From NCBI RefSeq assembly GCF_900109785.1, contig NZ_FOBH01000010.1:30265-94264 (forward strand): a stretch of DNA of 64,000 nucleotides. The letters are read 5' to 3'. The stretch is from Nitrosovibrio tenuis (GTDB lineage Bacteria > Pseudomonadota > Gammaproteobacteria > Burkholderiales > Nitrosomonadaceae). Below, piece by piece: positions 14,507 through 47,087 of the stretch (position 1 is its first letter; the number at the start of each line of letters is the position of its first letter). The position numbers were made by a program, and so were the translations under genes. The notes beneath the pieces were generated by a model, which searched no databases, was not told where the DNA came from, and was given only the letters and a program-made list of their open reading frames with translations.

Positions 14507-16453
14507 ATGAGAACAAGAAAAATCACAGTAACCGCAACATCGATAGCCGTAATTGCAGCCTCCTCGGGATTAACCATGGCGCAAAGCACACCACAATCTT
14601 CGGGTACCACCACCCTGTCTCCGGTCGTCGTGACGTCCAACCCGATCATTGATCGCGTGCGCATTGACCCGTTTTCTAGCACATCCGCGGTGGTAACCGA
14701 AAGCCAGCTTCGCGATCAGAATGCGTTCGATCTTGCCACGGCGCTGCGCCGTACCCCTGGGGTGCAAATATCACGCTACAACCCGGTAGGCGCCTTTGGC
14801 GGCGATCAGGGTGGGGCCGTCTTCATTCGCGGCATGGGCGTCAGCCGTCCGGGCAGCGAAATCAAGACGTACATCGATGGCATTCCCTTTTACATGGGTG
14901 TCTGGAATCATCCATTGCTTGATTTATTGCCGGTCAACGGCATGCAAGCCATCACCGTATACAAGAGCCCGCAACCACAAATCAACGGCAACAACTTTGC
15001 CTCCATCAACCTGGAAACCAAGCGCGCAACCGAGGATGGCATACAGGCCGGCGCAAGGATTTCCGGAGGCTACTTCAACACTTTTATCGAGCAGGCGGAT
15101 CTGGTTGGCCGCAAGGGAGATGTGGATTTCATGCTGGCGCAAGGCCATGCCCAGTCGGATGGCCAACGACTCAACGCGAGTGGGGAACTGAATAATGTCA
15201 TGGGCCGCATCGGCATGAGGTTGAATAGCAACTGGTCGGTTGGCACAAGCTTTCTTTATGTGGTCAATACGGCGCGCGATCCCGGTGACATCCGCCTGCC
15301 GAGGCCTGCCGTGGCACCGCAATATAATACCGAGGCAGGATTGGTCTCCGCTTTTATCTCGCATCGCCACGATGACTGGCGCGGCGATTTGCGTTTTTAT
15401 TACAGCAAGGGAGAAGGCAACTGGCTGTATCAACCCGCCCCGGATGGGGACACGCTCACCAATTTTGAAACGATTGGCTTCCGCTGGAAAGAGCAGTTTT
15501 CGCTATGGAAGGGAGGAGCCATTGTGGCGGGCCTGGACAGCGACTGGATTTCAGGCGATGTGCGATTCAATAGGGTGGCCCCGGCTCCGCAGGATAGTTT
15601 TAAAGCGCCCACTTTCCGCGTCACGTCCCCTTACGTGGCGTTGAGCCAAACGATCGAGCTGGGCAAAGGCTGGTCGCTTGTGCCGGCCGCCGGTGTGCGC
15701 GTCTATGACCATAGCCAGTTCCAGACAAAAACCTCGCCCCATGCGGGACTCTCCCTGATATCCGACTGGATCACGATCTTTGGCAATGTTTCGCGCGGCA
15801 TCAATTATCCCGGATTGGAAACGCCCGTTCTCTCCGCCGCGATACCCGCGCTGGGACAAAGCTGGAAACAGCTTGCGGCGGAAGAACTCAATCATGCGGA
15901 AATCGGCGTGAAGCTGACCCCCATCGACGCGACGCAAATCGATATCAGCCTGTTCATCGATCAGGTGAAGAACCGCTATATCTTTGGCTTTCCGCCCAAT
16001 GTTCCGCCGCCTCCCCAGTTTCTGAATCTGGGTACCTATCTGATGCGTGGCGCAGAAATCGCAATCAGACAGAATATCACGCGTAACTGGACCGTGTTTG
16101 GCGGTCTGACCTTGCTTGACCCCAGCATCGACAACTTACCCTACACACCAAAAAGAGCTGTCACGGCGGGCATCAACGGGCAGATGGGACCCATCCGCTT
16201 AACGGTCGATACCCAGTATCAGTCCAGTGTATTGGCGCTTAACCGGCCACGTGCAGCGGGCGCAATCAATACCGAGAGCGTTCATTCATTTGCGATCATG
16301 AATGCCCGCGTATCTTACCAACTGCCGATGCTGGGCAAACGCGGCGAAATCTTCGTGGCCATGGAGAATTTGCTTGATGTCCAATACGCCTATCGGCCGG
16401 GGTATCCCATGCCCGGACGCTGGGGTCAGGTCGGGTTTTCCGCGAGTTTCTGA
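14507..16453 (+). CDS. TonB-dependent outer-membrane receptor, putative metallophore receptor
   Basis: Outer-membrane 22-strand barrel receptor of 648 residues. The signal peptide ends near TMAQ (residue 25); a TonB-box-like LSPVVVTS follows at about 37-44. The plug domain spans roughly 55-165 with TALRRTPGVQISRYNP and GGAVFIRGMG, and the barrel continues to a C-terminal aromatic Phe (GFSASF), the BAM recognition signature. The energising TonB system is elsewhere. It is the first gene of the sulfur-carrier cluster and lies 86 bases before the E1 gene. By analogy with PdtK-type receptors it would import a metal-thiocarboxylate complex; the ligand is inferred only from context. Confidence 0.88.
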   Translation: MRTRKITVTATSIAVIAASSGLTMAQSTPQSSGTTTLSPVVVTSNPIIDRVRIDPFSSTSAVVTESQLRDQNAFDLATALRRTPGVQISRYNPVGAFGGDQGGAVFIRGMGVSRPGSEIKTYIDGIPFYMGVWNHPLLDLLPVNGMQAITVYKSPQPQINGNNFASINLETKRATEDGIQAGARISGGYFNTFIEQADLVGRKGDVDFMLAQGHAQSDGQRLNASGELNNVMGRIGMRLNSNWSVGTSFLYVVNTARDPGDIRLPRPAVAPQYNTEAGLVSAFISHRHDDWRGDLRFYYSKGEGNWLYQPAPDGDTLTNFETIGFRWKEQFSLWKGGAIVAGLDSDWISGDVRFNRVAPAPQDSFKAPTFRVTSPYVALSQTIELGKGWSLVPAAGVRVYDHSQFQTKTSPHAGLSLISDWITIFGNVSRGINYPGLETPVLSAAIPALGQSWKQLAAEELNHAEIGVKLTPIDATQIDISLFIDQVKNRYIFGFPPNVPPPPQFLNLGTYLMRGAEIAIRQNITRNWTVFGGLTLLDPSIDNLPYTPKRAVTAGINGQMGPIRLTVDTQYQSSVLALNRPRAAGAINTESVHSFAIMNARVSYQLPMLGKRGEIFVAMENLLDVQYAYRPGYPMPGRWGQVGFSASF

Positions 16454-16539
16454 CAATCTGGACAGAAGACGCGGGTATTTTAATTTTCAGCCTGTAGCGT
16501 CAGGGAATGGGCTTTTAAGATCAGAACGTGGAGTTTTAA

Positions 16540-17712
16540 ATGCAACTATTACCGCTCGTAGAGCCTTCGGAAGAGTTAAGCAAGGATGAAATTTCACGGT
16601 ACAGCCGCCATCTGCTGATTCCCGACGTGGGTCTGGAAGGACAAAAACGCCTCAAGAACAGCAAGGTTCTGGCGATAGGCGCGGGCGGCCTGGGGTCGCC
16701 CGTACTCCTGTATCTCGCCGCAGCCGGGGTCGGAACTTTAGGAATCATCGACTTCGACGTGGTCGACGAGTCCAATCTGCAGAGGCAGATCATTCATGGC
16801 CAATCCGACATCGGCAGGTTTAAATCCCTTAGTGCAAAAGATTCAATTAGCGAATTAAACCCTTATGTTCGCGTCCAGCTCCATAACGAACGTCTGGAAA
16901 CGTCAAATGCCTTGGAAATCATTTCGGGCTACGACCTGATTGTGGACGGAACCGATAATTTTTCCACGCGCTACCTGGTCAACGACGCCTGCGTGCTTGC
17001 GGGGAAACCCTATGTCTGGGGCTCCATCTTCCGGTTCGAGGGGCAGGCTTCGGTCTTTTGGGAAGACGCGCCGGGCGGTCGCGGCCTGAACTATCGTGAT
17101 CTGTATCCGGAACCGCCGCCAGCGGAAATGGCGCCTTCATGTGCGGAAGGAGGAGTCCTGGGTATTCTTTGTGCGTCGATCGGCTCAATCATGGCGACCG
17201 AGGCCATCAAGTTAATTACCGGCATGGGCGAATCCTTACTCGGGCGGCTTGCAGTCTATGACGCCCTCGACATGACATTCAAATTCATTCCCCTGCGGCG
17301 CGCCCCGGTAAGAACCCCGATAACCGGCTTGATCGATTACCAGGAATTCTGCGGGCTGAAACGGCCGGCGGCAGGGGACAAAACAGGCGTGCCGGTAATC
17401 ACCCCATTGGAGCTTCAAAAAATACGGGAAACCGGCACGGCCATGCAGCTCATCGATGTTCGCGGAATCGAGGAATGGAACATCGTACGCATAGAAGGCG
17501 CCAACCATATTCCCAAAAACAAGATAATGTCCGAGGAGGTTTTATCTCGGTTGAATAAAGAGGATTTCATCGTGCTGCACTGCAAGATGGGCGTTCGTTC
17601 CCGAGATGTTCTGGTTGAAATGCAAAAGCAGGGTTTTACCAATGTAAAAAGCCTGGATGGCGGGATTCTCGCCTGGATCAGAGACGTGGATCAGTCCTTA
17701 CCCAGTTATTGA
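16540..17712 (+). CDS. MoeZ-type adenylyltransferase/sulfurtransferase (E1 plus rhodanese)
   Basis: Adenylates the C-terminal Gly of a ubiquitin-like sulfur carrier and then transfers sulfur to form its thiocarboxylate. The N-terminal ThiF/MoeB domain has the nucleotide loop GAGGLGSP (residues 47-54), DGTDNFSTRYLVND, and the conserved Cys201 in SCAEGGVLG. The C-terminal rhodanese domain (about 285-388) has active Cys348 in HCKMGVRS. The two CxxC zinc pairs of E. coli MoeB are missing, as in actinobacterial MoeZ, which it resembles closely (GLNYRDLYPEPPP, VYDALDM). At 390 residues it fits MoeZ, QbsC and PdtF-type proteins. The partner carrier is at 18347. Confidence 0.93.
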   Translation: MQLLPLVEPSEELSKDEISRYSRHLLIPDVGLEGQKRLKNSKVLAIGAGGLGSPVLLYLAAAGVGTLGIIDFDVVDESNLQRQIIHGQSDIGRFKSLSAKDSISELNPYVRVQLHNERLETSNALEIISGYDLIVDGTDNFSTRYLVNDACVLAGKPYVWGSIFRFEGQASVFWEDAPGGRGLNYRDLYPEPPPAEMAPSCAEGGVLGILCASIGSIMATEAIKLITGMGESLLGRLAVYDALDMTFKFIPLRRAPVRTPITGLIDYQEFCGLKRPAAGDKTGVPVITPLELQKIRETGTAMQLIDVRGIEEWNIVRIEGANHIPKNKIMSEEVLSRLNKEDFIVLHCKMGVRSRDVLVEMQKQGFTNVKSLDGGILAWIRDVDQSLPSY

Positions 17713-17806
17713 GTGCCCGGTTATCGAGCGAGCGTCATTAGCAAATGTCTTACCGCAGTGCCGGATTGTAAGTCACCTGAATATCAACATTATGGAGTTA
17801 AAAATC

Positions 17807-18250
17807 ATGCTGACCATTCATACCAAACTCGTCGAAGCGATGCTTGCTCAAGCACACAGGGATCATCCCATCGAAACATGCGGCGTTATAGCCGGCCCGG
17901 AAGGATCCAATCTTCCACTGCGCTTGATCCCGATGCGCAATGCGGCTCAGTCGGAAACATTTTTCAAATTCGACGCGCAAGAGCAATTGCGCGTCTGGAG
18001 AGAGATGGAGGCCCGGGGAGAAGAACCTATCGTCATCTATCACTCCCACACCCGTACACAAGCCTACCCAAGCCGAACCGATATCCAGTACGCAACCGAG
18101 CCTCGGTCCCATTATGTCATCATCCCAACGGATTATTCGTACGGAGAAGAGATCCGCAGTTTCCGCATCTGTGATGGAATGGTGACCGAAGAGCGCGTCA
18201 GAATGCTGAATTCATATGAGTCAAATTTAGAACTGGCAATGGTCGCTTGA
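17807..18250 (+). CDS. JAMM/MPN+ metallopeptidase (Mov34, Mec/QbsD-like)
   Basis: Zinc isopeptidase-like protein of 147 residues. The complete JAMM signature is visible: Glu23 in PIETCGVIAG, then His79-Ser-His81, seven residues, Ser89 and Asp92 (HSHTRTQAYPSRTD). Family members either trim a sulfur-carrier precursor (QbsD on QbsE) or release an amino acid adduct from the carrier (Mec on CysO). I chose ATG 17807 because GGAG lies 9 bases upstream; ATG 17792 is a weaker alternative. It lies between the E1 and the carrier gene, the same order as in the pdt locus. An imperfect 18-bp direct repeat starts in its last codons (18233 and 18256). Confidence 0.92.
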   Translation: MLTIHTKLVEAMLAQAHRDHPIETCGVIAGPEGSNLPLRLIPMRNAAQSETFFKFDAQEQLRVWREMEARGEEPIVIYHSHTRTQAYPSRTDIQYATEPRSHYVIIPTDYSYGEEIRSFRICDGMVTEERVRMLNSYESNLELAMVA

Positions 18251-18346
18251 CGTAGCTGGCAATGGTCGCCTGAATGGTATTGATCAGCTCTGCCAACCCG
18301 TATCAGCCAACCAGCCTTTCGTATTCTTCAATAAAAAAGGAGCAAC

Positions 18347-18619
18347 ATGTCAATTACCGTACATATCCCCACCATACTCAGGCCGCTCACCGACAATCAA
18401 AAACGCGTCGAAATTGCGGGTTTGAATGTTATCGACGTTATTGAAGCGATGGAGCAGCAGTATCCGGGTGTCAAGGAGAAACTGGTCGCCGGAGGGAAGG
18501 CACACCGCTTCATGAATATATATGTCAATGACGATGACATCCGGTTTAATGACGGCCTTTCAACGAGGCTGAACGATGGCGATTCGTTGACCATTTTGCC
18601 TGCGGTAGCAGGGGGATAA
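18347..18619 (+). CDS. CysO/ThiS/MoaD-like ubiquitin-fold sulfur carrier protein
   Basis: A 90-residue beta-grasp protein that would carry sulfur as a C-terminal thiocarboxylate. The start has a strong AAAGGAG site. It is strikingly like actinobacterial CysO: N-terminal VHIPTILRPLT, central HRFMNIYVNDDDIRF, and C-terminal DGDSLTILPAVAGG. It ends directly in the reactive Gly-Gly, with no extra residues to be removed. The neighbouring E1 (16540) should activate it and the JAMM protein (17807) may deconjugate it. No cysteine synthase CysM is nearby, so cysteine synthesis, the role of CysO in mycobacteria, is not supported here. Confidence 0.94.
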   Translation: MSITVHIPTILRPLTDNQKRVEIAGLNVIDVIEAMEQQYPGVKEKLVAGGKAHRFMNIYVNDDDIRFNDGLSTRLNDGDSLTILPAVAGG

Positions 18620-18656
18620 GCACAGCCCATCCTATAACGCAGGAAAAAACAAGCGC

Positions 18657-20642
18657 ATGAATATTCCACTCGACGGGCCTCTGAATCGTCCCCTATATCG
18701 TCCTCTGGACTGCCTCCCGGGTCGTCCAATGGATCGAGCCTTATCCGGTTGCGCGATAGCGGGCCAACTGAAGAGTACAAGCCCGGATTTTGCTTCGATT
18801 GCGTCCTCGCTGCACTACCAGTCGACCGCGCTGGGTATGGAAATTGAAACAACAGAAAATGGCTCGGGCAGCACAGCCTTCTCTTTTGGATTCAAGACAC
18901 CTCATACCATGCCGGTACGGTGCAATGTAACAAGATGGAGGAATCCTTCCAGGCATAGTCCCGTGACAGAGAATACCATGCAGGCGGCTTGCGGCCTGAT
19001 GTCAGTGCATGGACGAGCCAGCGGTAAACTCCAGCCTCTGGGGTTGAACTATGTTTCGACACTCACTGCGGCGTTGGCGCTTCAGGGTGGTATTGCTGCC
19101 TCGATTGGTCAGCTACGCGGCCTCTCGACCTTGAACAGCAACATTTCGATGGGATCTGCAGGTTTATTGAGTGTGGCGCAGTATATCGCCGGTGCGACCG
19201 CTTCAGAGTCTCCCGAAACGCTTTTGCCCCAGCATACCGCCCACGCGACTGGCTTTCCCTTCGTTTCATTGGATGGCGTCGTCTTTGAACTCGAAACACT
19301 GGATGCGGGACCTTGGCGTAAATTCTGGTCCGCGATCGGAGTAAGTTCAGCGGCAGCAGGCAAAGGATGGTCCGCCTTTTTGCTTCGGTATGCGAAGGCC
19401 ATATCCCCTGTACCTGAAGAATTATCCAGCGCAATATCGAAGTTTAGTTATCACCGTCTTTCGCAAATATGTACCAGCACCGGCATGGCTATTTGCCCCG
19501 TGCGCTCCATCGATGTCAGAGCCCAGGACGAGGATAGCAAGCGTATCTGGCTGCAGGGTCCCTGGGAGTTCCTTTTCGAGACGAATTTTAAAGAGAACCT
19601 CAGGGACGGACGGTCTAGCCGCGCCATCGGCGATTTGCCCACCGGTAACTTGCCCTTGAGCGGGCTCACCGTTATCGAATCATGCCGGCGGATCCAGGGC
19701 CCCCTCGCCGGCCACCTCCTGGCGCTCCTGGGGGCGGACGTCATCAGGATAGAACCGCCGGGCGGAGATCCCCTGCGGGGCATGCCACCGATGGCCGAGG
19801 GCTGTTCCGCACGGTTCGACGCACTCAACCGTCTCAAGACCATCAGGGAGATCGATATCAAATCTCCGGCGGGGCAGGCAGAAATCACGGACCTGGTGCG
19901 GCATGCCGACATTTTTCTGCATAACTGGGCCCCGGGCAAAGCGGTCCTGTTTAATCTCGATCATGAGGATATGGTCCGTATCAATCCCTCGCTGATTTAT
20001 GCCTATGCCGCTGGTTGGTCAACAGACAGCGCGGGCCATGCCTCCTCAAGTTCAATGCCTGGCACCGACTTTATGACCCAGGCTTATTCCGGCGTTGCCA
20101 GAAAAATTGCCGAAAACTCGGGTACCCGGGGCGGATCCTTGTTTACGGTGCTTGATGTGCTCGGGGGCGTCGTTGCGGCACAAGGAGCCACCATCGCACT
20201 GCTCAATCGCTGCATGAATAACACGGGCGCCAGAGTCACTTCGTCACTCATGAGCGCCGCAACACTGCTGTGTGCGGATGATTTTCAGAATCTCTATAAC
20301 CTGCCGGGCAGGGGTGCTCCAGCTTCAAAAAGCATTATTGTCAATATCTACATCACGAAGCGCGGAAAAATTGCGGTGGAGTGCCGGGACTTGAAAACCT
20401 TGGCGCGATTAGCGGAAATCCTTGATGCTGTTATGTATACGGAAAGTGATTTTCCGCAGTGCCTGGACAGTTTGTTCCTGTCGAGGACAGCGAACGAGTG
20501 GGCCGAGATTTTTGAACAAGCCGGCATTCCGTCAGCAGTCGTCATTGAAGATCTTGCAGAGCTGCAAACCGTGGCGTATCTGCAACCCGATTTGAGCCCC
20601 GGCCCCTATACAAAAGTCAATTCTCCCTGGAGTTTCACATGA
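18657..20642 (+). CDS. Double-length family III CoA-transferase (CaiB/BaiF), N-terminal half degenerate
   Basis: 661 residues, well above the usual 380-420. The C-terminal half (about 335-655) is a clear CaiB/BaiF domain: GLTVIESCRRIQGPLAGHLL, LGADVIRIEPPGGDPLRG, the FDALNRLKTIREIDI block, the HNWAPG loop and a PGTDFMTQAYSG motif. The N-terminal half contains a second, shortened region resembling the later part of the fold (QAACGLMSVHG, GLNYVSTLTAALALQGGIAA). The first 30 residues are a Pro/Leu/Arg repeat of odd composition, so the true start may be later. It follows the carrier by 37 bases and overlaps the ligase gene by 4. A CoA or acyl transfer onto the metallophore precursor is inferred. 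Confidence 0.85.
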   Translation: MNIPLDGPLNRPLYRPLDCLPGRPMDRALSGCAIAGQLKSTSPDFASIASSLHYQSTALGMEIETTENGSGSTAFSFGFKTPHTMPVRCNVTRWRNPSRHSPVTENTMQAACGLMSVHGRASGKLQPLGLNYVSTLTAALALQGGIAASIGQLRGLSTLNSNISMGSAGLLSVAQYIAGATASESPETLLPQHTAHATGFPFVSLDGVVFELETLDAGPWRKFWSAIGVSSAAAGKGWSAFLLRYAKAISPVPEELSSAISKFSYHRLSQICTSTGMAICPVRSIDVRAQDEDSKRIWLQGPWEFLFETNFKENLRDGRSSRAIGDLPTGNLPLSGLTVIESCRRIQGPLAGHLLALLGADVIRIEPPGGDPLRGMPPMAEGCSARFDALNRLKTIREIDIKSPAGQAEITDLVRHADIFLHNWAPGKAVLFNLDHEDMVRINPSLIYAYAAGWSTDSAGHASSSSMPGTDFMTQAYSGVARKIAENSGTRGGSLFTVLDVLGGVVAAQGATIALLNRCMNNTGARVTSSLMSAATLLCADDFQNLYNLPGRGAPASKSIIVNIYITKRGKIAVECRDLKTLARLAEILDAVMYTESDFPQCLDSLFLSRTANEWAEIFEQAGIPSAVVIEDLAELQTVAYLQPDLSPGPYTKVNSPWSFT

Positions 20643-22312
20643 ACGATTCCGGAATCATAGACCTGGTTCCTGCCGAGGTTCGCAGCCAGTGGGCCCGGAA
20701 TGGAACCTATCCCAACAAATCACTTTACGAATTATTCTGCGAGCATGTAAGGCGGCACCCCGATGCCCCAGCCGTTATATCCCTCGATCACACCATTACT
20801 TATTTACGGCTACTGGATAAGGTTCATCGCCTCGCTTCGAGCTTGAAGGCGCTTGGAATTGTTTCCGGCGATGTTATTGCATACCAGCTCCCCAATAGTT
20901 GGCATAGCTGCGCGATCGATCTCGCGGCGGCTGCGCTTGGCGCGATTGTCGCGCCTTTCCCGCCAGGCCGCGGCCGGCTTGATATTCATTCCTTGCTCCA
21001 AAGGTGTGATGCGCGTGTAATTATTGTCGAACGGGAACACGCCAAAATCGATCTTTGTGAAGTTATTGAGTCGTTGCGCTCGACCCTGTTGTCGCTACGT
21101 ATTCTCATCGTCGACGATATCAGCGGGAAGGTCCCGAAAGGCTGGCATACGCTGGACGATTTGTTTCAGGCTGAACCTATCGGTTCGGCTCATTTACCGG
21201 CGGTTTCCCCCCACTCACCCGTTCGCTTCCTGATCTCATCGGGGACGGAATCCGAGCCAAAATGGGTTGCCTATTCGCACAACGCGCTGGCTGGCGGACG
21301 AGGCCGTTTTCTACAACGCATCCATCCCGATGGAAGCGCTTTTAAAGGGCTGTACCTGGTGCCGCTTGGCACGGCATTTGGTTCAACCGCGACATTTGGT
21401 GTTTTGTCCTGGCTTGGCGGATCGGTCGTTCTCCTGCGTCAATTCGATGTTGCGGCTGCCATTCAAACTATTGCGGAGCTGAAGCCGGCCTACATCTTTG
21501 GCGTTCCCACCATGTTTCAACGTATCGCCGCGGACCCGGCATTATCGAAAATCGATACCTCCAGCCTGATCGCCATCATTAGTGGCGGAGCGAAAATCGA
21601 CGAGGCATCGATCCGCAGGTGTACCGAGGCGTTCGGGTGCGGTTTTATCAGCTTGTACGGTTCGGCGGATGGCGTGAATTGCCATACCACACTTGACGAT
21701 GACCTGGAAACGATTCTCCGTAAGACGGGGCGGCCAAATCCCGACGTGTGTTCCCTCCGCATAGTCGATGATCAGAAGTGTGAAGTGCCGCGCGGCTGTA
21801 TCGGCGAGATTGCGGCCAGAGGTCCGATAAGCCCCATGCAATATGTCAATGCTCCTGACCTGGATGCCTTGTACCGGGACAAGGAAGGCTGGGTTTATAC
21901 CGGAGACCTGGGCTTTATTGATGAGGACGGGTATCTGGTGCTGTCCGGACGGAAAAAGGACATCATTATTCGCGGCGGCGTCAATATCAGTCCCGCCCAA
22001 ATCGAAAACCTTGCTGTTTCCCATCCGGCAGTCGTCAGCGCTGCCTGTGTACCGGTCGCTGATCCGGACCTGGGGCACCGGGTTTGCCTCTGCCTGGTAT
22101 TGAGAGACGGTGTCGAACGCCCCTCCCTTTCCCAGTTTACCCGCTACCTGCACGAGCAGGGCTTGGAAACCAGCAAGCTACCGGAATATCTGCGCTATTG
22201 CCGGCAGTTGCCGCTCAACCCGGCGGGGAAAGTCGATAAGAAGCAGCTAACGGCGGAAGTGGAGTTTACCCAGCAGACCTCTATCCCACGCCTCGCCCAA
22301 TATGCTCATTAA
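20639..22312 (+). CDS. AMP-dependent acyl/aryl-acid ligase (class I adenylate-forming)
   Basis: Activates a carboxylic acid as acyl-AMP, then probably as a thioester. The A3-type P-loop reads LISSGTESEPKW (about residues 197-208), the A5 motif is SLYGSADG, the A7/A8 block is GWVYTGDLGFIDEDGYLVLSGRKKD, and the catalytic lysine lies in the C-terminal NPAGKVDKKQL. The length of 557 is normal. The start overlaps the stop of the CoA-transferase (ATGA), so translation is coupled. In the pdt and qbs loci a homologous ligase activates the ring carboxylate for attack by the thiocarboxylated carrier. The same role is likely here, but the substrate cannot be read from the sequence. Confidence 0.92.
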   Translation: MNDSGIIDLVPAEVRSQWARNGTYPNKSLYELFCEHVRRHPDAPAVISLDHTITYLRLLDKVHRLASSLKALGIVSGDVIAYQLPNSWHSCAIDLAAAALGAIVAPFPPGRGRLDIHSLLQRCDARVIIVEREHAKIDLCEVIESLRSTLLSLRILIVDDISGKVPKGWHTLDDLFQAEPIGSAHLPAVSPHSPVRFLISSGTESEPKWVAYSHNALAGGRGRFLQRIHPDGSAFKGLYLVPLGTAFGSTATFGVLSWLGGSVVLLRQFDVAAAIQTIAELKPAYIFGVPTMFQRIAADPALSKIDTSSLIAIISGGAKIDEASIRRCTEAFGCGFISLYGSADGVNCHTTLDDDLETILRKTGRPNPDVCSLRIVDDQKCEVPRGCIGEIAARGPISPMQYVNAPDLDALYRDKEGWVYTGDLGFIDEDGYLVLSGRKKDIIIRGGVNISPAQIENLAVSHPAVVSAACVPVADPDLGHRVCLCLVLRDGVERPSLSQFTRYLHEQGLETSKLPEYLRYCRQLPLNPAGKVDKKQLTAEVEFTQQTSIPRLAQYAH

Positions 22313-23513
22313 CCCGGAAAACCCCGGCAACCGGACGCATACCGGGCTGGCCCGATCGCTGTCGGGCGAGGTGAGAAAGTTTGTGGATGAAATGATTATC
22401 CCGAACGAGTCCCGGTTGGCTCAGAGCGGCGATGATGGATCCCGGCTGCAGTCGGAGCTGGCTGAAGAGGCACGATGTGCCGGACTATGGGGTTTATTCT
22501 ACCCGCTCTCCCATGGGGGGAAAATCGCCTCTCTTGAAGACTATCTGGTTATCGCTGAACAGGAAGGACGAACTGAATATTCCCCGGCAATTCTCGGGAG
22601 TCACTCCGCGCTGGACGCGCATATGCTTCTCAAATTCGGTACCGATGAAATCCGCAAAAACTTCCTGGAGCCGATGGCATCCGGGGAAGCAATCCCCAGC
22701 TATGGCATGACGGAGCCGGGGCATGGCGGATCGTTTCCCGCCCTGATAACGACCTCTGCATACCTGTCAAACGGGCACTGGATTATCAATGGCAGAAAAT
22801 GGTTTGTCGGCAACACGGACCGGGCGACATTCGTAACCGTCCTGGCGCGTACTGCCGCAAAGGATACTGCTCTCCCGAAGGCGCTGTCCATGATTGTCGT
22901 CCCGACTGATTCTCCCGGATTCAAGGTTGAGCGCCAGATCACCATGATGGGTCGCTCTCTTGGCCAGGGCGAGATATCTTTTACCGAAGTGGAGGTCCCC
23001 GAACATAACTTGTTGGGCGGCAGCGGCAGCGGTATGGATTTGATGGGTCAGCGGCTGGGTATTGGCAGACTGCTCCGCTCGATGAACTGGGTGGGATTGG
23101 CCCAGCGATGTTTCGACCTGATGGGCGCTCGAATCAATTCCGAGCGCGGCAGAACCGCTCGATTGCCGGAGAAACAGTTGGTGCGTCAGCATGTGGTCAA
23201 CGTGTACCAGGCTATTGCGAGCGCACGCGAATTAATTCGGGTTGCCGCCCGAAGCGTCGATGCCCAGCGTCCAAACAATGTAGAGATCAACATTGCGAAA
23301 ATCGCCGCGTCACAGGCCCTGTGCCTTGCTTCGGACTCGGCAGTGCAGCTTTATGGCGCCGAAGGTATCAGCGATCTCACTCCCCTTTCCGGTATTTATA
23401 GAGTCGCGCGTACGTCGCGCATACTCGATGGCACAGACGAGTCGCTTATCAGCTCCACTGGCCGCCGGCTCATCAGCTTCTATGAAGAACACGACACGTA
23501 TCATTTTGCGTGA
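22302..23513 (+). CDS. Acyl-CoA dehydrogenase-family flavoprotein
   Basis: 403 residues with the ACAD architecture: helical N-terminal domain, then SYGMTEPGHGGSFPALITT and GRKWFVGNTDRATF (FAD/substrate region, 125-175), GRSLGQGEISFTEVEVPE, and the C-terminal LYGAEGISDLTPLSGIYRVARTSRILDGTDE. The Glu in DGTDE/DESL is at the usual late position. The gene overlaps the ligase by 11 bases and ends the tightly coupled block; a strong hairpin follows at 23520. It may oxidise a dihydro ring or acyl precursor. In a dipicolinate-type pathway the dehydrogenation of dihydrodipicolinate would be a candidate, which is inference. Confidence 0.9.
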   Translation: MLINPENPGNRTHTGLARSLSGEVRKFVDEMIIPNESRLAQSGDDGSRLQSELAEEARCAGLWGLFYPLSHGGKIASLEDYLVIAEQEGRTEYSPAILGSHSALDAHMLLKFGTDEIRKNFLEPMASGEAIPSYGMTEPGHGGSFPALITTSAYLSNGHWIINGRKWFVGNTDRATFVTVLARTAAKDTALPKALSMIVVPTDSPGFKVERQITMMGRSLGQGEISFTEVEVPEHNLLGGSGSGMDLMGQRLGIGRLLRSMNWVGLAQRCFDLMGARINSERGRTARLPEKQLVRQHVVNVYQAIASARELIRVAARSVDAQRPNNVEINIAKIAASQALCLASDSAVQLYGAEGISDLTPLSGIYRVARTSRILDGTDESLISSTGRRLISFYEEHDTYHFA

Positions 23514-23519
23514 ATATAT

Positions 23520-23549
23520 CTGAACCCGCCGGTTGATCGGCCGGTTCAG
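23520..23549 (+). terminator. Strong hairpin after the acyl-CoA dehydrogenase gene
   Basis: A 13-bp stem with one mismatch and a TTGA-type 4-base loop: outer arms CTGAACC/GGTTCAG, inner GCCGG/TCGGC-type pairing. It starts 7 bases after the stop codon. There is no T-run behind it, so it may attenuate rather than stop transcription, or protect the upstream mRNA. Confidence 0.55.
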
Positions 23550-23633
23550 ATAAGGCAGACATGGCAGACATGCGGGTACTGCAAGAATCATGATCTTCAT
23601 CTTTTATTCATTCACTGGCGCACGCTCCCGACA

Positions 23634-24902
23634 ATGCTGAAGACCCGAACGATGCAACATCCCGCCATTACGGACATCTGGTTTCGCGTGGTGCTCATAT
23701 TTGCAATGTCTCTGCCTATGCTGGTGTTGTATGCCACAAGCACCCTTGGACCGCTCCTCGGGTCCGACTTGCGCTTTGGGCCCGCATCGCTGGGTTATCT
23801 GGTGATGAGCTCATTTGGCGTGGCGGCGGTTTTATCGCTTTGGGCGGGCGCGTTTGTGGATCGCATCGGTTCACGTAATGCGCTGATCGTGCTTTTCTCC
23901 ACCATCGCTTCCGCTTTTACATGGATTGCATCGGTTGAAAGCTATTATGGTTTAATCGGGGCCACCGCCCTATGCGGCATTGCTCAGGCTCTCGCGAATC
24001 CGGTTACCAATTTACTGATCGCCCAGCAGGTTCCTCCGGCGAAGAAGGCAAAGATTGTAGGACTCAAGCAATCCGGCGTTCAGCTCGCCGCGCTCTTCGC
24101 TGGTCTGGTGCTGCCCGGTATCGCATTTGAGTATGGCTGGCGTACCGCATTCGCCATGGTCGTACCGGTGGCAATATTATTCGCGCTCACGGCCCCTTTC
24201 GTCACCCCAAAAACACATCCGGGAACAGGCAGAGGCTTCACTTTTTTCCCACCGAATTCATTTTTGCTGCGGTTGATGGGGATTCAGTTCTGCGTAGGCG
24301 TGTCGCTTTCTGCTTTCGTCACCTTTCTGCCGACCTTTGCCATCCAGCATGGAATGCCCCTATCGCTGGCCGGCACGCTGATTGCGGTCCTTGGCGTAAT
24401 GGGGATGTGCTCGCGGATAGTGCTAACGCCCATGGGTGCAAAATTTAAAGACGAATCGCTACTGCTGCTTTTACTGATCGCCATAGCCGCCTGCTCGATG
24501 GGTGTAATGATGCTTACGGATGCTGAAAACCATTGGCGCTTGTGGGTGGGCGCGGTGGGTGTTGGGCTCACCGCAGTGGGCACTAACGCGATAGCAATGA
24601 GCATGCTGATCAGGGATGCGGCTTTTGGTCCGGTAACTGTTGCATCGGGTTTTGTTTCGGTTGCCTTCTTCGGCGGCTTCGCACTGGGGCCGCCTTTTTT
24701 TGGCGCGATATCAAATTATTCCGGGGCAAATTATTCCGGGGACCCGCTGTTTGGCTGGACCGCGCTGATAGGTGTGCTTTTATCGGCATGTATGATGTCC
24801 TCGGCATTAGCATCGGCACGCCGCAGGGCTCGGGCGTCACTGATGGCGGCCGATGCCATGCAGCCCACGAACGTAGTGGCATTCAAGCGGACCCCTGAAT
24901 GA
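23634..24902 (+). CDS. MFS transporter (12-TM), probable metallophore exporter or precursor carrier
   Basis: 422 residues with twelve hydrophobic segments. The MFS signature between TM2 and TM3 reads GAFVDRIGSRNALI (about 82-95), and a second-half counterpart is present near 270. The start is ATG 23634 or ATG 23652 (MQHPAITD), the latter being closer to the family. A five-residue internal duplication (NYSGANYSGD, from a perfect 15-bp tandem repeat at 24712-24741) lies in a loop near TM11. By position it fits PdtE/QbsJ-type permeases, but an unrelated organic-acid carrier is possible. Confidence 0.87.
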   Translation: MLKTRTMQHPAITDIWFRVVLIFAMSLPMLVLYATSTLGPLLGSDLRFGPASLGYLVMSSFGVAAVLSLWAGAFVDRIGSRNALIVLFSTIASAFTWIASVESYYGLIGATALCGIAQALANPVTNLLIAQQVPPAKKAKIVGLKQSGVQLAALFAGLVLPGIAFEYGWRTAFAMVVPVAILFALTAPFVTPKTHPGTGRGFTFFPPNSFLLRLMGIQFCVGVSLSAFVTFLPTFAIQHGMPLSLAGTLIAVLGVMGMCSRIVLTPMGAKFKDESLLLLLLIAIAACSMGVMMLTDAENHWRLWVGAVGVGLTAVGTNAIAMSMLIRDAAFGPVTVASGFVSVAFFGGFALGPPFFGAISNYSGANYSGDPLFGWTALIGVLLSACMMSSALASARRRARASLMAADAMQPTNVVAFKRTPE

Positions 24903-24980
24903 GTGATGTAAAGCTCAGTTGGCAATCGGGCTGGTGGGCGGTCGGCTGAATTGCCAACCATGCGTTTTCCAACGATATGG

Positions 24981-25766
24981 TTAGAGATTACTCAAGAATT
25001 CCGTCACTTCACGGACGAACAAGTCAGGAGCGGTTCTCATCGCGCTGTGCTGTTGACCCTGGAGCAATTTGATCTGGCTGAAAGGCAGGGCCTGGTGAAG
25101 CTTCTCGGCGATCCGATGACGTCGTGGGGGGCTATCGCCGCCAAGCAGGAGCATGGTGAAAATTTGCAGAGCATGAAATCGCGCAGGTTCAAAAATATAG
25201 CGGTCAATGCCCTGCAACTCTCGGGGAATGGTGTGAACTGCGGCGATCCGCCCGTGCCAACTCGGTCCGCCTTGCATGGCAGCGATCTCCTGGGAAGGGG
25301 TTTTGACGATGTCGCGGAAAAAAAGCAGCAGGACCTCCTCCCGGTTCCCGGCTTTCAGCAGGTATTGCATGGTTGCGTTGAGTTCCGCAGACCAGGCGCT
25401 GCCAGCCAGGGAAATAGATGGCTCATACAGTATGAGACCGCCAATGTTTGGCGTCAGGAGCGCGGCTTCCAGCGCGCAGAGTCCCCCAAAAGAATGCCCA
25501 AGGAGATGTACGCTACCGCCGATGCCATCGACAACCCTGGCGATATCTTCGCACTCGCGTTCGAATGCATAGCTGTTGGCATCTCCGCTGCGGCCGCGCC
25601 CCCGCCGATCGATCGTCCAAACGCTGAAATGGCGTTCAAGCGCTGGCAATACCGGCGCCCAGGCAAGATGGTCTCCGGAAGTGCCGTGCACGAGTAACAG
25701 GGGTTCGCCCGCACCGCTATGCCAGCATGCAATGGATGTTCCATCGCTGGAGGAAATCAATTCCAT
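24981..25766 (-). CDS. Alpha/beta-hydrolase fold enzyme
   Basis: 261 residues. The oxyanion region reads LLVHGTSGDHLAW (27-39), the nucleophile elbow GHSFGG (about 94-99) has Ser at the usual place, and a late Asp (LLGGDSPP) and His (QQHSAM) complete the triad. It resembles non-haem haloperoxidase or esterase-like soluble hydrolases. It is convergent with the MFS gene and divergent from the porin gene, whose start is only about 17 bases away, so both promoters must overlap coding sequence or one start is misplaced. The substrate is unknown; a hydrolase is also recalled in pdt-type loci. Confidence 0.88.
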   Translation of the reverse strand: MELISSSDGTSIACWHSGAGEPLLLVHGTSGDHLAWAPVLPALERHFSVWTIDRRGRGRSGDANSYAFERECEDIARVVDGIGGSVHLLGHSFGGLCALEAALLTPNIGGLILYEPSISLAGSAWSAELNATMQYLLKAGNREEVLLLFFRDIVKTPSQEIAAMQGGPSWHGRIAAVHTIPRELQGIDRYIFEPARFHALQIFTMLLLGGDSPPRRHRIAEKLHQALPFSQIKLLQGQQHSAMRTAPDLFVREVTEFLSNL

Positions 25767-25783
25767 GAGTTTTGCAAGTTCGA

Positions 25784-27379
25784 ATGCATAAGGCCTGCCA
25801 TTTTATTAGAGATAGCGTGAGGGTAATCAATATTTGTCGTGCTTCAGGATGCCACCGCGACGGATCGCGCAGGCCATTGAAGCGGTTAATTCTAGGGACA
25901 GTGATCGGTTCCGTATTGCAAATGAGTGGCACGCTGAATGCGGAAGAAATTAACAAACCAGAAATTAACAAACCTTTAGGCCAGATTAACGAATACCTGC
26001 GCGTTACGGGTGAGCTTTACGGCAGTTATGAGGCATGGAATTATTTCCGGCCAAGTCCAGCGGTAAATAATAACAATGATTACGATTTGTGGGCGCTGCG
26101 CGCCAGGCTGAGCGCACTGCTTACCACGCCCTATTTGGATGGCTATGCGCAAGCTCAGTATGTCGGATTATACGGCCTTCCCGACAATGCCGTTGCGTCC
26201 CCTGGAGGGCCCTTGGGGCTGGGGGCCGCGTATTTCCAGGCAAATCAATCGACCAATGCCAGTAATATTTTTCTGAAACAGGCTTATCTTAACTTCAAGC
26301 TCAATTCATTGGGGTTGCCGGGCGCTTTCCTGAAAATCGGTCGGTTTGAATTCATGGACGGCATGGAATACAGGACGGGCAACGACAAGTTCGATGGCCT
26401 GAAAAGGACGCGTATTGCGCAGCGCCTCATAGCGTCGAATGTAGTCCATGTCGGGCGGAGCTTCGACGGCTTTGCTGCCGTATACGATCGTCCCGCTTTC
26501 GATATCACGGTGACGGGTATCCGTCCAACCCGGGGCGGCTTCACCGTCCAGGGACAGAATGAAATCAGTGATATCAATCTTTTCTATACCGCTCTGACCG
26601 GCAAGAAAGACGTGTTGTTGCCCGGAACCGAAGGGCGGATCTTCTACGTCAATTACGATGACAAGCGCGATACCCAAGTGGTGGATAACCGCGCCATCGC
26701 CAGCAGACCCTCGTTGAACGATCAGAAACTGAGTATTCACACAATAGGCGCCCACCTGCTGAGCCTTCATCAACTGGAATCGGGCAGCATCGACGCCTTG
26801 CTATGGGGAGCTTATCAGTTTGGCAACTGGACCAACCAGGATCATCAAGCGTGGGCCATCGCTGCCGAGGCGGGCTACCAATGGACCGAGCTTCCCCTCA
26901 AGCCATGGTTACGAGCGATCTATTTTCGAAGCTCGGGGGATGACAATGCAAGAGATGGCAGCCATAAGACTTTTTTTACAATGCTTCCCAGCGGGCGCGC
27001 CTACGCCAAGCTGCCTTTTTACAATCTGATGAATTTACAGGACGCGTTCATCCAGTTGACCGTACTACCCACTCCAAAAACCACACTGACCATTGACATG
27101 CATCATCTGTCGCTTACCGACTCGCATGACCTGTTCTACGGCGGATTGGGGCCAACGTCAGGCTCAGGAGCATTCGGTTATTCCGGGCGGCCTTCGCCTT
27201 CAAATGGCAACAGCGATGTGGGGCAACTGGTGGACATAAGCTTCACACACGTACTCAACAAGAACCTGTCATGGCGGTTTTATTACGGACATGCCTTCGG
27301 CGGCAGCGTTGTAAAAAACATTTATCAAGGAAAAAAGGACGCCGATACCGTTTACCTGGATTTCAACCTGGTCTTTTGA
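25784..27379 (+). CDS. Alginate-export (AlgE)-like outer-membrane porin
   Basis: Outer-membrane beta-barrel of about 530 residues. The signal peptide is LKRLILGTVIGSVLQMSGTLNA, preceded by an uncertain N-terminus: ATG 25784 is given, but GTG 25817 is equally possible. After a perfect-looking EINKP duplication (15-bp tandem at 25946) the mature part shows alternating aromatic strands and family motifs such as LRARLSALLTTPYLDGYAQ, KQAYLNFKL, GRFEFMDGMEYRTGN and a terminal LDFNLVF ending in Phe. Such porins pass anionic polysaccharides or small solutes. Next to a GH88-like gene, uronic-acid oligosaccharides are possible; passage of the cluster's own product is the alternative. Confidence 0.82.
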   Translation: MHKACHFIRDSVRVINICRASGCHRDGSRRPLKRLILGTVIGSVLQMSGTLNAEEINKPEINKPLGQINEYLRVTGELYGSYEAWNYFRPSPAVNNNNDYDLWALRARLSALLTTPYLDGYAQAQYVGLYGLPDNAVASPGGPLGLGAAYFQANQSTNASNIFLKQAYLNFKLNSLGLPGAFLKIGRFEFMDGMEYRTGNDKFDGLKRTRIAQRLIASNVVHVGRSFDGFAAVYDRPAFDITVTGIRPTRGGFTVQGQNEISDINLFYTALTGKKDVLLPGTEGRIFYVNYDDKRDTQVVDNRAIASRPSLNDQKLSIHTIGAHLLSLHQLESGSIDALLWGAYQFGNWTNQDHQAWAIAAEAGYQWTELPLKPWLRAIYFRSSGDDNARDGSHKTFFTMLPSGRAYAKLPFYNLMNLQDAFIQLTVLPTPKTTLTIDMHHLSLTDSHDLFYGGLGPTSGSGAFGYSGRPSPSNGNSDVGQLVDISFTHVLNKNLSWRFYYGHAFGGSVVKNIYQGKKDADTVYLDFNLVF

Positions 27380-27392
27380 AGGTATATTGAAT

Positions 27393-28556
27393 ATGCATAT
27401 ATTGAAAACACAACCGTGTAATACCGTAGAACGGCTATTAAGCCGTGAAGAGATGATGGATGCGCTTGAGTTATTGGTTCATCGCATGGATATCATTGAC
27501 ACAAAAAGTATGAATGGCTTCCCTCTTTATTCGCCAGCAGCCACGGATCGGTGGACGATCTCGCCGGGCGGCTCCTGGGCTGGAGGGTTTTGGAGCGGAT
27601 GGTGGTGGCTGCGATCCCGGCTGACCGGATCAGCTTCGGATCGGCGCAAAGCATCCGAAATCTGCCAACGCTTGACGCAAAAGATCAGTGCGGATTCTCT
27701 GAACCGGAGCCTGATCTTTTGGTACGGCGCTGCCCTCGGCAGCCTCTGGTTTGGCGATGCCGGTGCACAAAAACTTGCGGCGGAATCCATTGTCGCAATT
27801 GGAGCTTCCTATGACCCGGAAATGGATTGCATTCCTCTGGGCACAGACATGGGCGGCGGCAAAGAAGGGAATCAACGTGCCGGAATAGATACGCTTGCTT
27901 CCTTGATCCAGCTTTTCAATAGCAGCCAGCATAATGTTTACCATGACATCGCACACTGTCATACAGACACCGTATTGCGCGCCTGTTTTACCGGTAGTGG
28001 AGCATTCCATGCAGATGCATACTACCGAAAATGGGTTCTGCGGCCCACCGATCAAGCCGGTGACTGGTCTCGCGGCCAGGCTTGGGGCATGCTGGGATTA
28101 AGCCGGGCCGCGGCGCACTGGGGAGAGCCGTACTTAACCCATGCGCGTATCGCATGCGAATACTGGAAGCATTCACGTCCCGAAGCCGCCGCCCCCCTGA
28201 ATAGACTGAGTCATCCTTCAGGTCCGCCGCATCTTTCAAGCCATTATGATCCTTCATCTTCCGTCATCGCATGCCTTGCCATGCTCTGCCTGGCTGCTCT
28301 GACGCCTGATGGCAATCAATGGCGCATTGATGCCCATCGGGGAATTACGGCCGTCATTCGCAGCCCCTACTTTACCGTGTTCCAGGAACATGTCGGCGAT
28401 CAGGGGAAGCAAAATATCGCTTCCGGAATCTTTTGGGGCTGCTGTTACGAGACCCATCACGGTAAGAATGAACTGGTTGAATCCGCGTGGGGGAGTTTCT
28501 TTCTCATGGCGGCGCTCTGCATACTCACCGATGTCATCGAGCCACACTACTGCTAA
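27393..28556 (+). CDS. GH88-like (unsaturated glucuronyl hydrolase-type) protein
   Basis: 387 residues of the (alpha/alpha)6 barrel type. Recognisable GH88/GH105 landmarks are SWAGGFWSGWWWL near residue 62, the NQRAGIDTLASLIQLF segment with the conserved Asp, and DWSRGQAWGMLGLSRAAAHW around 213-232, followed by DPSSSVIACLAM. The place where I expect the first catalytic Asp (HDLGF in characterised enzymes) reads WYGAALG, so activity may be altered or lost. No signal peptide is seen, hence cytoplasmic. ATG 27393 has GAAGG upstream. It lies 13 bases after the porin gene, so both are probably co-transcribed. Confidence 0.68.
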   Translation: MHILKTQPCNTVERLLSREEMMDALELLVHRMDIIDTKSMNGFPLYSPAATDRWTISPGGSWAGGFWSGWWWLRSRLTGSASDRRKASEICQRLTQKISADSLNRSLIFWYGAALGSLWFGDAGAQKLAAESIVAIGASYDPEMDCIPLGTDMGGGKEGNQRAGIDTLASLIQLFNSSQHNVYHDIAHCHTDTVLRACFTGSGAFHADAYYRKWVLRPTDQAGDWSRGQAWGMLGLSRAAAHWGEPYLTHARIACEYWKHSRPEAAAPLNRLSHPSGPPHLSSHYDPSSSVIACLAMLCLAALTPDGNQWRIDAHRGITAVIRSPYFTVFQEHVGDQGKQNIASGIFWGCCYETHHGKNELVESAWGSFFLMAALCILTDVIEPHYC

Positions 28557-28592
28557 GTTAAATATCCGTAAAGGAAATCTAAAGGAAATCAG

Positions 28593-29918
28593 ATGATGAA
28601 CCGCCTGCTCCCACGATTGGCCAACCGTATCACTCTCTGCCTGTTTTTAACGGTCTTCGCCTCCTCCTTGGTTGTTGCTCAGGAAGTGGATTCCGGCTCC
28701 ATCCTTTTGCACGCCGCACGAGTCTTTGATGGCAATAACATCAGAACAGATACATCTGTACTGGTAGTCAATGGGCATATAGCGCGAATCGATAAGCGTG
28801 AATCATTCAGGCCTGGCGACGCGAGAGTCATTGACCTGGGCGATGCAACCCTCTTACCCGGTTTTATCGAATTGCACGCCCATCTGTCATTTCAAAACGT
28901 TCCGGCCGACACCGTTCTCAAGCACGGAATTACCACCATTCGGGATGTAGGAGGACCCATACACAAACCCTATGGCGGTAACGGAAGCTTGCGTGTGCTG
29001 ACATCCGGACCCATCCTTACTGCACCCGGCGGTTACCCAATCCCGATGCTGGGAACAACCAATATCGCGGTGCCTGTTTCCACAGAGAAAGAAGCGCGCG
29101 CAACCGTCCGCACCCTGATTAACGAGGGAGCTGTTGTAATTAAAATCGCGCTTGAACCCGGCGGCGAAGCGGGCGCCCCCTGGTCCTCCGGTCATGGTCA
29201 TGGACACGATCATGGCCATGGACACGTTCCTGATCGTGGTCAACACTCTGATCAGGATCATAATCGTGGCCGTCATGATCAGCCAGCCGCGGAACACGCA
29301 AACGCCCATAACAAGTCTGCCCACGGTGCCGCCCCTCCGCAGGCCGAATGGCCGCTGTTATCGGAGCGCATCGTGAAAGCGATCGTGGATGAAGCCCATA
29401 AAAACAATCGCCATGTGACAGCGCATATTGCCGAGCAAAAAGGAGCTCAGATTGCGGTCAATGCCGGAGTGGACGAATGGGCTCACATGCCTTGCGACAT
29501 TATTCCGGAACCGCTGCTGAAGAAAGCGGTGGCGCAGAAAGTCAAAATAGTCACCACGCTGGACACCCTGTCGAAATGTTCAGGCATTGCTCACAATACC
29601 CACAACTGGACAAGACTGGGCGGTGAGCTTTTATACGGTGCTGAGATCGCACACCCGGACATCCCGAGAGGTATCGATGCGCAGGAACTCATCCATATGA
29701 AGCAAATGGGAAATATGGGAGTGATCGATGTCCTGCGCGCCGCAACGTCGAAGGCAGGTCAGCAATTGAATTTACCCTTGCTGGGCACTTTGCAACCGGG
29801 CGCCCCCGCCGATATGATCGCGGTCAAAGGCGATCCCACCCACAATCTGAAAGCTTTGGAATATCCCGATCTGGTTATTTCGGGAGGCAGGATTGTGGTG
29901 AATAATTTTGGAAATTAG
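28593..29918 (+). CDS. Secreted amidohydrolase with a His-rich insertion
   Basis: 441 residues, metal-dependent amidohydrolase superfamily. A signal peptide (to about VVAQE, residue 30) puts it in the periplasm. The metal-binding HAH of strand 1 reads ELHAHLSF near residue 95; HVTAHIAEQ supplies a later His pair and GTLQPGAPADMIAVKGDP is the usual C-terminal motif. Between residues 190 and 245 an inserted loop holds alternating Gly-His and Asp-His (GHGHGHDHGHGH) and more scattered His, suited to bind Zn, Cu or Ni. It follows the GH88-like gene by 36 bases and converges with the RND gene 14 bases away. The substrate is unknown. Confidence 0.85.
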   Translation: MMNRLLPRLANRITLCLFLTVFASSLVVAQEVDSGSILLHAARVFDGNNIRTDTSVLVVNGHIARIDKRESFRPGDARVIDLGDATLLPGFIELHAHLSFQNVPADTVLKHGITTIRDVGGPIHKPYGGNGSLRVLTSGPILTAPGGYPIPMLGTTNIAVPVSTEKEARATVRTLINEGAVVIKIALEPGGEAGAPWSSGHGHGHDHGHGHVPDRGQHSDQDHNRGRHDQPAAEHANAHNKSAHGAAPPQAEWPLLSERIVKAIVDEAHKNNRHVTAHIAEQKGAQIAVNAGVDEWAHMPCDIIPEPLLKKAVAQKVKIVTTLDTLSKCSGIAHNTHNWTRLGGELLYGAEIAHPDIPRGIDAQELIHMKQMGNMGVIDVLRAATSKAGQQLNLPLLGTLQPGAPADMIAVKGDPTHNLKALEYPDLVISGGRIVVNNFGN

Positions 29919-33009: not shown

Positions 33010-33068
33010 CACTGACGCGCTGCCGGACTATTCTTGTCCACAAGATCCCAGCATGCTGGAATGCTCAT

Positions 33069-45432: not shown

Positions 45433-45435
45433 ATT

Positions 45436-46973: not shown

Positions 46974-47087
46974 GAGGGAAAATTCCTGGGCGGCAACCGG
47001 AGGCGTTGTGCTCGCGCCCGCCTTCCGACTATTTACAGAGGACAATTAGTACAATTCAGTTGATAGGCTTTTTCTGAGGAAGTACGC

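Follow-up and report, generated by a model that had tools for sequence, protein, structure and literature searches.

The described systems closest to the locus analysed here are the Pseudomonas pdt cluster for pyridine-2,6-bis(thiocarboxylate) (PDTC), the thioquinolobactin (qbs) locus and the PtmA3/PtmU4 thioacid cassette. In Pseudomonas F113 the genes are ordered pdtCKPELMFGHIJON, 13 letters for the 14 locus tags PSF113_2605-2618 (PMC3570484). Iyer et al. 2006 listed a core of PdtF, PdtG, PdtH, PdtI and PdtJ, their neighbourhood 4a, in N. europaea and N. multiformis (PMC1779556), so that the five-gene core is not new in nitrifiers. Within the literature searched, we saw nothing beyond that work on the nitrifier locus, and no paper there pairs 'thiocarboxylic' with 'chalkophore'. 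Here we describe the locus at positions 14507-29918 of a 64,000-nucleotide stretch of Nitrosovibrio tenuis DNA (contig NZ_FOBH01000010.1), the whole of which we call the window. Its gene anatomy makes it very probable that the locus serves a thioacid metallophore. On balance, and with some reserve, we favour a fuller interpretation, in which a PDTC-type thiocarboxylate cassette lies within a receptor/amidohydrolase pair, makes a thioacid metallophore, likely for copper, and re-imports the metal complex.

Gene array of the locus and its conservation

A preliminary description of this DNA had named a set of genes at 14507-29918, and all of them are present on the plus strand, as assigned by Pfam and NCBIfam profile scans or, for the GH88-like gene, by profile and fold searches. 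The minus-strand alpha/beta hydrolase at 24981-25766 had been missed. The array reads as follows.

14507..16453, plus strand: TonB-dependent outer-membrane receptor, 648 residues (PF07715)
16540..17712, plus strand: E1-like adenylyltransferase-rhodanese fusion, PdtF position (PF00899, PF00581)
17807..18250, plus strand: JAMM/JAB metallopeptidase, PdtG position, start corrected (PF14464, Prok-JAB)
18347..18619, plus strand: ThiS/MoaD/CysO-like sulfur carrier with a Gly-Gly end, PdtH position (PF02597)
18657..20642, plus strand: two-domain type III CoA-transferase of the PdtI/PtmU4 kind (PF02515, two stretches)
20639..22312, plus strand: AMP-forming acid:CoA ligase of the PdtJ/PtmA3 kind (PF00501 and tree)
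22302..23513, plus strand: acyl-CoA dehydrogenase homologue, putative PdtO position (PF00441, PF02770, PF02771)
23634..24902, plus strand: MFS transporter, predicted exporter (PF07690, MFS_1)
24981..25766, minus strand: alpha/beta hydrolase (PF12697)
25772..27379, plus strand: Alginate_exp-family outer-membrane porin, start uncertain (PF13372)
27387..28556, plus strand: GH88-fold protein, putative PdtN position, probable ATG at 27393 (profile and fold search)
28593..29918, plus strand: predicted secreted, metal-dependent amidohydrolase of the arginine carboxypeptidase/prolidase group (PF01979; signal peptide by eye)
29190..29333, plus strand: His-rich insert of the amidohydrolase, 48 residues with 12 His, after the Lys184 strand

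In the counts below, Nitrosospira denotes the window's genus (g1) and Nitrosomonas denotes g3. The CoA-transferase is present in 35 of 125 Nitrosomonadaceae genomes, the window's included (15 of the 23 Nitrosospira genomes and 20 Nitrosomonas genomes), and in 6 of 399 sampled genomes of the order, only 3 of which lie outside the family; the closest named cassette locus is that of Nitrosospira sp. 56-18 (68% in the CoA-transferase). We compared the window with stretches, each at most 20 kb long, from 14 Nitrosospira and 19 Nitrosomonas loci, several of the Nitrosomonas stretches being cut by contig ends (the 20th g3 locus, G094, is not among them). E1, JAMM, carrier, CoA-transferase and ligase occur in all 34 stretches (15 Nitrosospira and 19 Nitrosomonas), and the gene set is conserved in the Nitrosomonadaceae that have the cassette. 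The dehydrogenase and MFS genes are found in 15/15 Nitrosospira and 17/19 Nitrosomonas stretches, the GH88 gene in 15/15 and 16/19, the amidohydrolase in 15/15 and 13/19, the porin in 13/15 and 17/19, the alpha/beta hydrolase in 9/15 and 17/19, and the receptor in 15/15 and 1/19, respectively. Receptor, E1, JAMM, carrier, CoA-transferase, ligase, dehydrogenase, MFS, GH88 and amidohydrolase genes follow one another in the same order in all 15 Nitrosospira loci, and the array is therefore not a product of chance.

The previously proposed resemblance to the pdt gene order is supported by Pseudomonas loci of PDTC type. In the genus of P. wayambapalatensis, 18 of 398 sampled genomes have the CoA-transferase; 16 stretches from 15 of these were taken, together with L011 and L018 (G230, a split match, was left out). 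The order E1-JAMM-carrier-CoA-transferase-ligase-dehydrogenase-MFS-GH88 is shared by the window, a Methylococcales metagenome-assembled genome (MAG; L007) and 18/19 Pseudomonas loci, with the alpha/beta hydrolase and porin genes sitting between MFS and GH88 in nitrifiers and L007. In Pseudomonas (L011, L082, L084, L086, L087) a TonB receptor, a methyltransferase, an MFS protein, a thiamine pyrophosphate (TPP)-enzyme-like protein and a class III aminotransferase precede the run from E1 through the GH88-like gene; the TPP-enzyme-like protein has no Pfam match, its label being our own reading. L093 and L094, in which a receptor was not called, have an AraC gene ahead of the methyltransferase gene. 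The complete Pseudomonas array of 14 genes is pieced together from several loci, no single stretch showing all of them. Because this order and gene count agree with those of F113, pdtO would be the dehydrogenase and pdtN the GH88-like gene, a match of order and count rather than of F113 sequence.

Homologues of the Alcaligenes AraC and methyltransferase proteins are absent from the 15 Nitrosospira and 19 Nitrosomonas stretches (tblastn, 1e-10), as had been noted for the window; in the Pseudomonas stretches, some of which are cut short, AraC occurs in 3/19 and the methyltransferase in 10/19. The porin, GH88-like and amidohydrolase genes had together been called new neighbours. This holds for the porin and amidohydrolase, which, like the alpha/beta hydrolase, the nitrifier lineage adds (L007 also has the porin and the alpha/beta hydrolase), but not for the GH88-like gene, which belongs to the PDTC-type cassette. 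Among 12 actinobacterial stretches, all of which have the CoA-transferase, MFS, GH88, dehydrogenase and ligase relatives are each present in 11, so GH88-like, dehydrogenase and MFS genes belong to the cassette in both Proteobacteria and Actinobacteria, a finding that is new here. In a ligase tree of 75 rows (the ligase was found in 76 of 85 loci; L075 was left out for length), the 15 Nitrosospira form one clade (97/95) and the nitrifiers join L007 (100/100), with L012, a MAG labelled 'Proteobacteria bacterium', grouping with the nitrifiers. In L008 and L075, both from Nitrosomonas MAG_42, several open reading frames (ORFs) lie between two ligase-matching pieces, as though the gene had been interrupted by an element. 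In a search for plasmid-borne copies, only two plasmid records matched, distantly.

The receptor is found in 23 of the 125 family genomes, comprising the 15 cassette-bearing Nitrosospira, G069 and seven that have no CoA-transferase (G002, G009 (a fragment), G017, G029, G035, G146 and G147), while G003 carries a second, partial copy. A tree of the receptor has long branches that come together and is not used here. The amidohydrolase follows the receptor in all six contexts analysed that lack an adjacent cassette, namely five of these seven genomes and the second copy of G003 (four whole and two fragments), and RND and membrane-fusion genes then follow in three of the six, as in the window. The cassette thus occupies the space between two genes that also occur together on their own; its placement there, with the receptor on one side and the amidohydrolase with its His-rich insert on the other, and the retention of the pair in cassette-less relatives, are new here. 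Two loci of genus g2, L117 and L118, have the receptor without the cassette, L118 showing ORFs of the same lengths as L117.

The amidohydrolase has 3mtw as its best solved relative and keeps the HxH, Lys and two His residues in 37-38 of 39 rows. Its His-rich insert is present in 28/28 cassette-linked copies (21-53 residues, 8-16 His) and in 4/4 whole stand-alone pair copies (20-37 residues, 6-10 His), whereas all six paralogues without the insert have 5-6 residues there with 1-2 His and the fragment L119 has 4 residues and no His. By the usual topology of the amidohydrolase fold, we take the position after the Lys184 strand to be the mouth of the active site. A structure model of the protein (pLDDT 61) was too poor to use, and the insert is disordered in it.

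Sulfur transfer and the GH88-fold protein

Catalytic residues are conserved in the core proteins. The E1/rhodanese protein has MoeZ as its top NCBIfam model (629 bits, below the cut-off of 647), and Cys348 of the rhodanese domain is kept in 64/64 alignment rows. The JAMM protein keeps Glu, His, His and Asp in 68/68 rows and Ser in 64. When 8 loci are compared, JAMM homology sets in at residue 50-51 of the long ORF in 6 and at residue 32-33 in 2; the protein begins MLT at the corrected start in 34/34 nitrifier loci, and GGAG precedes the ATG at 17807. With this start, rather than 17657, E1 and JAMM are separated by 94 bases and do not overlap. The E1/JAMM overlap is an ORF artefact; genuine overlaps are those of CoA-transferase/ligase (4 bases) and ligase/dehydrogenase (11 bases).

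The best solved relatives of the carrier are 4n6e and CysO (3dwg), and in the window its Gly-Gly forms the last residues, with none after. In 23 of 34 nitrifier loci the carrier likewise stops at Gly-Gly, 10 have 1-11 more residues, and in one Nitrosospira (L057, G003:C26) carrier and CoA-transferase run on as a single open frame with Gly-Gly inside. Carriers with a tail would need a peptidase cutting after Gly-Gly, which fits JAMM as the trimming enzyme. The start of the CoA-transferase is uncertain, homology beginning near residue 23-25; its C-terminal domain has a conserved Asp471 (76/77 rows, one gap), which by our reading of the motif would be the conserved Asp named for PtmU4-type enzymes in PMC6006322.

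By analogy with PtmA3/PtmU4 and the pdt and qbs systems, the ligase would activate an aromatic acid as its CoA ester, the E1/rhodanese protein would load sulfur on the Gly-Gly end of the carrier, after JAMM trimming where a tail exists, and the CoA-transferase-like protein would transfer the sulfur to the acid. The other steps, less well supported than the sulfur chemistry, may be these: the acid would be of dipicolinate type and be supplied by the lysine pathway, since the cluster contains no recognised scaffold gene; the dehydrogenase and an altered GH88-fold enzyme would finish the ring; the MFS protein and porin would export the thioacid; the TonB receptor would import the metal complex; and the periplasmic amidohydrolase would hydrolyse it and hold the metal on its His-rich insert.

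Neither Pfam nor NCBIfam yields a match to the GH88-like protein at E 0.001. A 32-row profile of its family matches structures of unsaturated glucuronyl hydrolase (UGL; 2ahf, E 7e-20), and a structure model (pLDDT 90.6) matches UGL 2fv0 in Foldseek (TM 0.80), with a D88N mutant UGL structure also among the matches. Among the 120 listed of 138 relatives found, those that carry a name from their source are called 'glucuronyl hydrolase', 'unsaturated chondroitin disaccharide hydrolase' and once 'hypothetical protein'. We take Asp88 and Asp149 to be the catalytic Asp residues of UGL. Across 31 sound rows of the profile alignment (the L020 row, a run-on translation, was left out), the Asp88 column holds Asn in 17, Tyr in 11 and His in 3 and is directly followed by an invariant Arg (31/31; residue 105 counted from 27393), and the Asp149 column is Asp in 31/31 rows (Asp166 in the window protein). 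The window protein shares the fold and the Asp149 equivalent with GH88 enzymes (2ahf, 1vd5) and differs from them in having Asp88 replaced, with an Arg alongside. From this loss, which is new here, we infer that the family performs an altered reaction, perhaps on an acid.

The GH88 gene is present in 39 of the 125 family genomes. None of the 35 genomes with the CoA-transferase lacks it, and in 32 of them both genes share a contig; 4 others have the GH88 gene (Fisher p 7e-27, related genomes not being independent). The four others are Nitrosomonas genomes with decayed loci (L097-L100) that keep JAMM, carrier and GH88 genes; E1, CoA-transferase and ligase were not detected in them, and their carriers end AGN, TAD or TAG instead of AGG.

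Several further genes lie around the array. An RND permease and a membrane-fusion protein are encoded directly downstream (window 29932-34268, minus strand); the closest NCBIfam models of the permease are RND_permease_2 and MdtC/MdtB, below cut-off, and an RND gene lies by the locus in 6/15 Nitrosospira stretches and in cassette-less L116-L118. Upstream of the receptor lies a PEP-CTERM protein gene (window 12724-13524, minus strand), and some other loci have relatives of it close to the receptor or the cassette. By eye, two similar-looking gene sets (window 716-2980 and 44644-48188) each start with ABC-type ATP-binding proteins.

Which metal the locus may serve

The neighbours of cassettes in other lineages bear on the metal. 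NF033672, a 'copper uptake system-associated' family, occurs in 5 of 250 genomes of the order but at 4 of 27 cassette loci (L010, L014, L018 and L101; 8 betaproteobacterial and 19 Pseudomonas loci, L007 and the qbs locus not being counted). Three of the 27 loci have the window's receptor type, and in all three NF033672 lies next to the receptor. More widely, a receptor homologue adjoins NF033672 in 5 of 9 places, 4 of these places coming from genomes chosen for holding the cassette and 5 from the order sample. It is possible that receptor and NF033672 form an uncharacterised copper uptake unit. The paired arrangement is seen in L014, L018, L101, L111 and L112; DUF2946 genes lie near it in L018, L111 (just under cut-off) and L112, and L018 also has a di-haem oxidoreductase match.

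In the 12 actinobacterial stretches a SigC-like sigma factor and a Met/His-rich membrane protein each occur in 11 and a copper-ATPase relative in 5; two of the latter match TIGR01511 (491 and 487 bits against a cut-off of 397). SigC controls copper acquisition, ctpB and the nrp operon in another actinobacterium (PMC7924339). The Met/His-rich protein adjoins the cassette MFS gene (loci L019-L032) and has no Pfam or NCBIfam match in the copy scanned (L024). Taken together, this comparative context, reported here for the first time, probably leans to copper, and if the product is a thioacid metallophore, copper would probably be its main metal.

Several observations weigh against this interpretation. 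NF033672 was found in 0 of 125 family genomes, in a search whose controls likewise matched in none of 14 genomes, although NF033672 was found in other genomes, and three of the four NF033672 cassette loci (L014, L018, L101) have no GH88 gene, so their product may differ. In the actinobacterial stretches E1, JAMM and carrier occur in none of the 12, the SigC matches (175-187 bits) fall below the NCBIfam cut-off of 219, and another sigma model slightly outscores SigC in L020 and L022. A receptor of the window's type is missing from 18/19 Nitrosomonas stretches. N. europaea, finally, was reported unable to make siderophores in a chrome azurol S (CAS) assay (PMC3050691).

The strongest alternative, which we nevertheless consider unlikely, keeps the thioacid chemistry and makes the product an iron siderophore, PDTC or an analogue, imported by the TonB receptor. 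Among the siderophores listed for Pseudomonas are PDTC and thioquinolobactin (PMC10393863), and this standing of PDTC also counts against a copper role. Fe-PDTC has been isolated from a Streptomyces (PMC7374359), which at the same time speaks for a cassette of PDTC type. The L117 receptor of genus g2, which carries an STN domain, lies behind genes for an ECF sigma factor and FecR, an arrangement typical of iron systems that likewise speaks against copper. For the window receptor the nearest NCBIfam models, scoring below cut-off, describe siderophore and haem receptors, and ammonia oxidisers have a high demand for iron. Iron is disfavoured by the copper-type neighbours at other cassette loci, by the CAS result and by Fur-box matches, which are at background (above the window's 95th percentile in 1/16 receptor and 2/34 E1 upstream regions). 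These are counts of matches to a consensus, which weak sites may escape.

Zinc, or a broad range of metals, is a rather improbable target of the same chemistry. ZnuA-like and ABC-3 genes adjoin the cassette in 10/12 actinobacterial stretches, which points to zinc or manganese and thus away from copper; a title in a reference list concerns PDTC in Pseudomonas putida zinc use, and His-rich inserts bind zinc too. Against zinc, Zur-box matches, counted in the same way, are at background (0/16 receptor and 1/34 E1 upstream regions above the 95th percentile), and the NF033672 and copper-ATPase neighbours are of copper type. Least probable of all is a thioacid exported as an antimicrobial or metal-detoxifying agent, with receptor and amidohydrolase serving another ligand: Nitrosomonas stretches keep MFS and porin (17/19 each) but hardly the receptor, thioplatensimycin shows the same chemistry serving antibiotics (PMC6006322) and RND genes lie by some Nitrosospira loci, yet the receptor is present in all 15 Nitrosospira cassette loci and no whole amidohydrolase linked to receptor or cassette lacks the His-rich insert.

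Ammonia monooxygenase needs copper, so that copper supply would matter to ammonia oxidisers. A 2022 review table gives N. europaea without siderophore and chalkophore biosynthesis (PMC9693385), and a genome note mentions siderophore synthesis genes in N. communis, not named there (PMC4714114). If the cluster serves copper, it would allow copper acquisition in nitrifiers to be tested directly by genetics, tell strains able to make a carrier apart from strains able only to use it, and add a thioacid class to the known chalkophores. More tentatively, ammonia oxidisers and some methane oxidisers may make a thiocarboxylate chalkophore with a ubiquitin-like sulfur relay, a repurposed GH88-fold finishing enzyme and periplasmic unloading by an amidohydrolase with a His-rich loop; relatives keeping only receptor and amidohydrolase would then live on the copper carriers of others.

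Comparison with known systems

The CrtA copper TonB receptors (PMC12914433) have copper-linked neighbours, as receptors of the window's type do elsewhere. As described there, CrtA proteins have 707-911 residues, compared with 648 for the window receptor, and PepSY_TM neighbours, not seen at the window; by this description, length and neighbours differ and set the two apart, and we think CrtA-type identity unlikely. The window receptor has weak N-terminal matches only to solved receptors, among which no chain is named CrtA, although whether that set includes CrtA was unchecked.

The qbs locus (L025/L096, assigned by gene content) has E1, JAMM, carrier, CoA-transferase and ligase in common with the window. 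Its carrier ends GGCF and its ligase lies on a long separate branch of the tree, and L025, which has additional scaffold genes, is without the dehydrogenase, this MFS and the GH88 gene. A thioquinolobactin-type product was rejected, since the window carries the dehydrogenase and GH88 genes that L025 lacks. The PtmA3/PtmU4 cassette, like the window, combines a ligase with a two-domain type III CoA-transferase that has a conserved Asp; the genes for carrier, E1 and JAMM are not part of that cluster, and its acid is an aminodihydroxybenzoate (PMC6006322).

The account of neighbourhood 4a in Iyer et al. 2006 covers the core without the dehydrogenase, MFS and GH88 genes, the receptor/amidohydrolase pair or the copper context (PMC1779556). 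Closest overall is the pdt cluster of Pseudomonas, with which the window shares the F-G-H-I-J core followed by dehydrogenase, MFS and GH88-like genes in order. The nitrifier loci differ from it in having no relatives of the C, P, L and M positions and a different receptor, and they add the alpha/beta hydrolase, the porin and the amidohydrolase.

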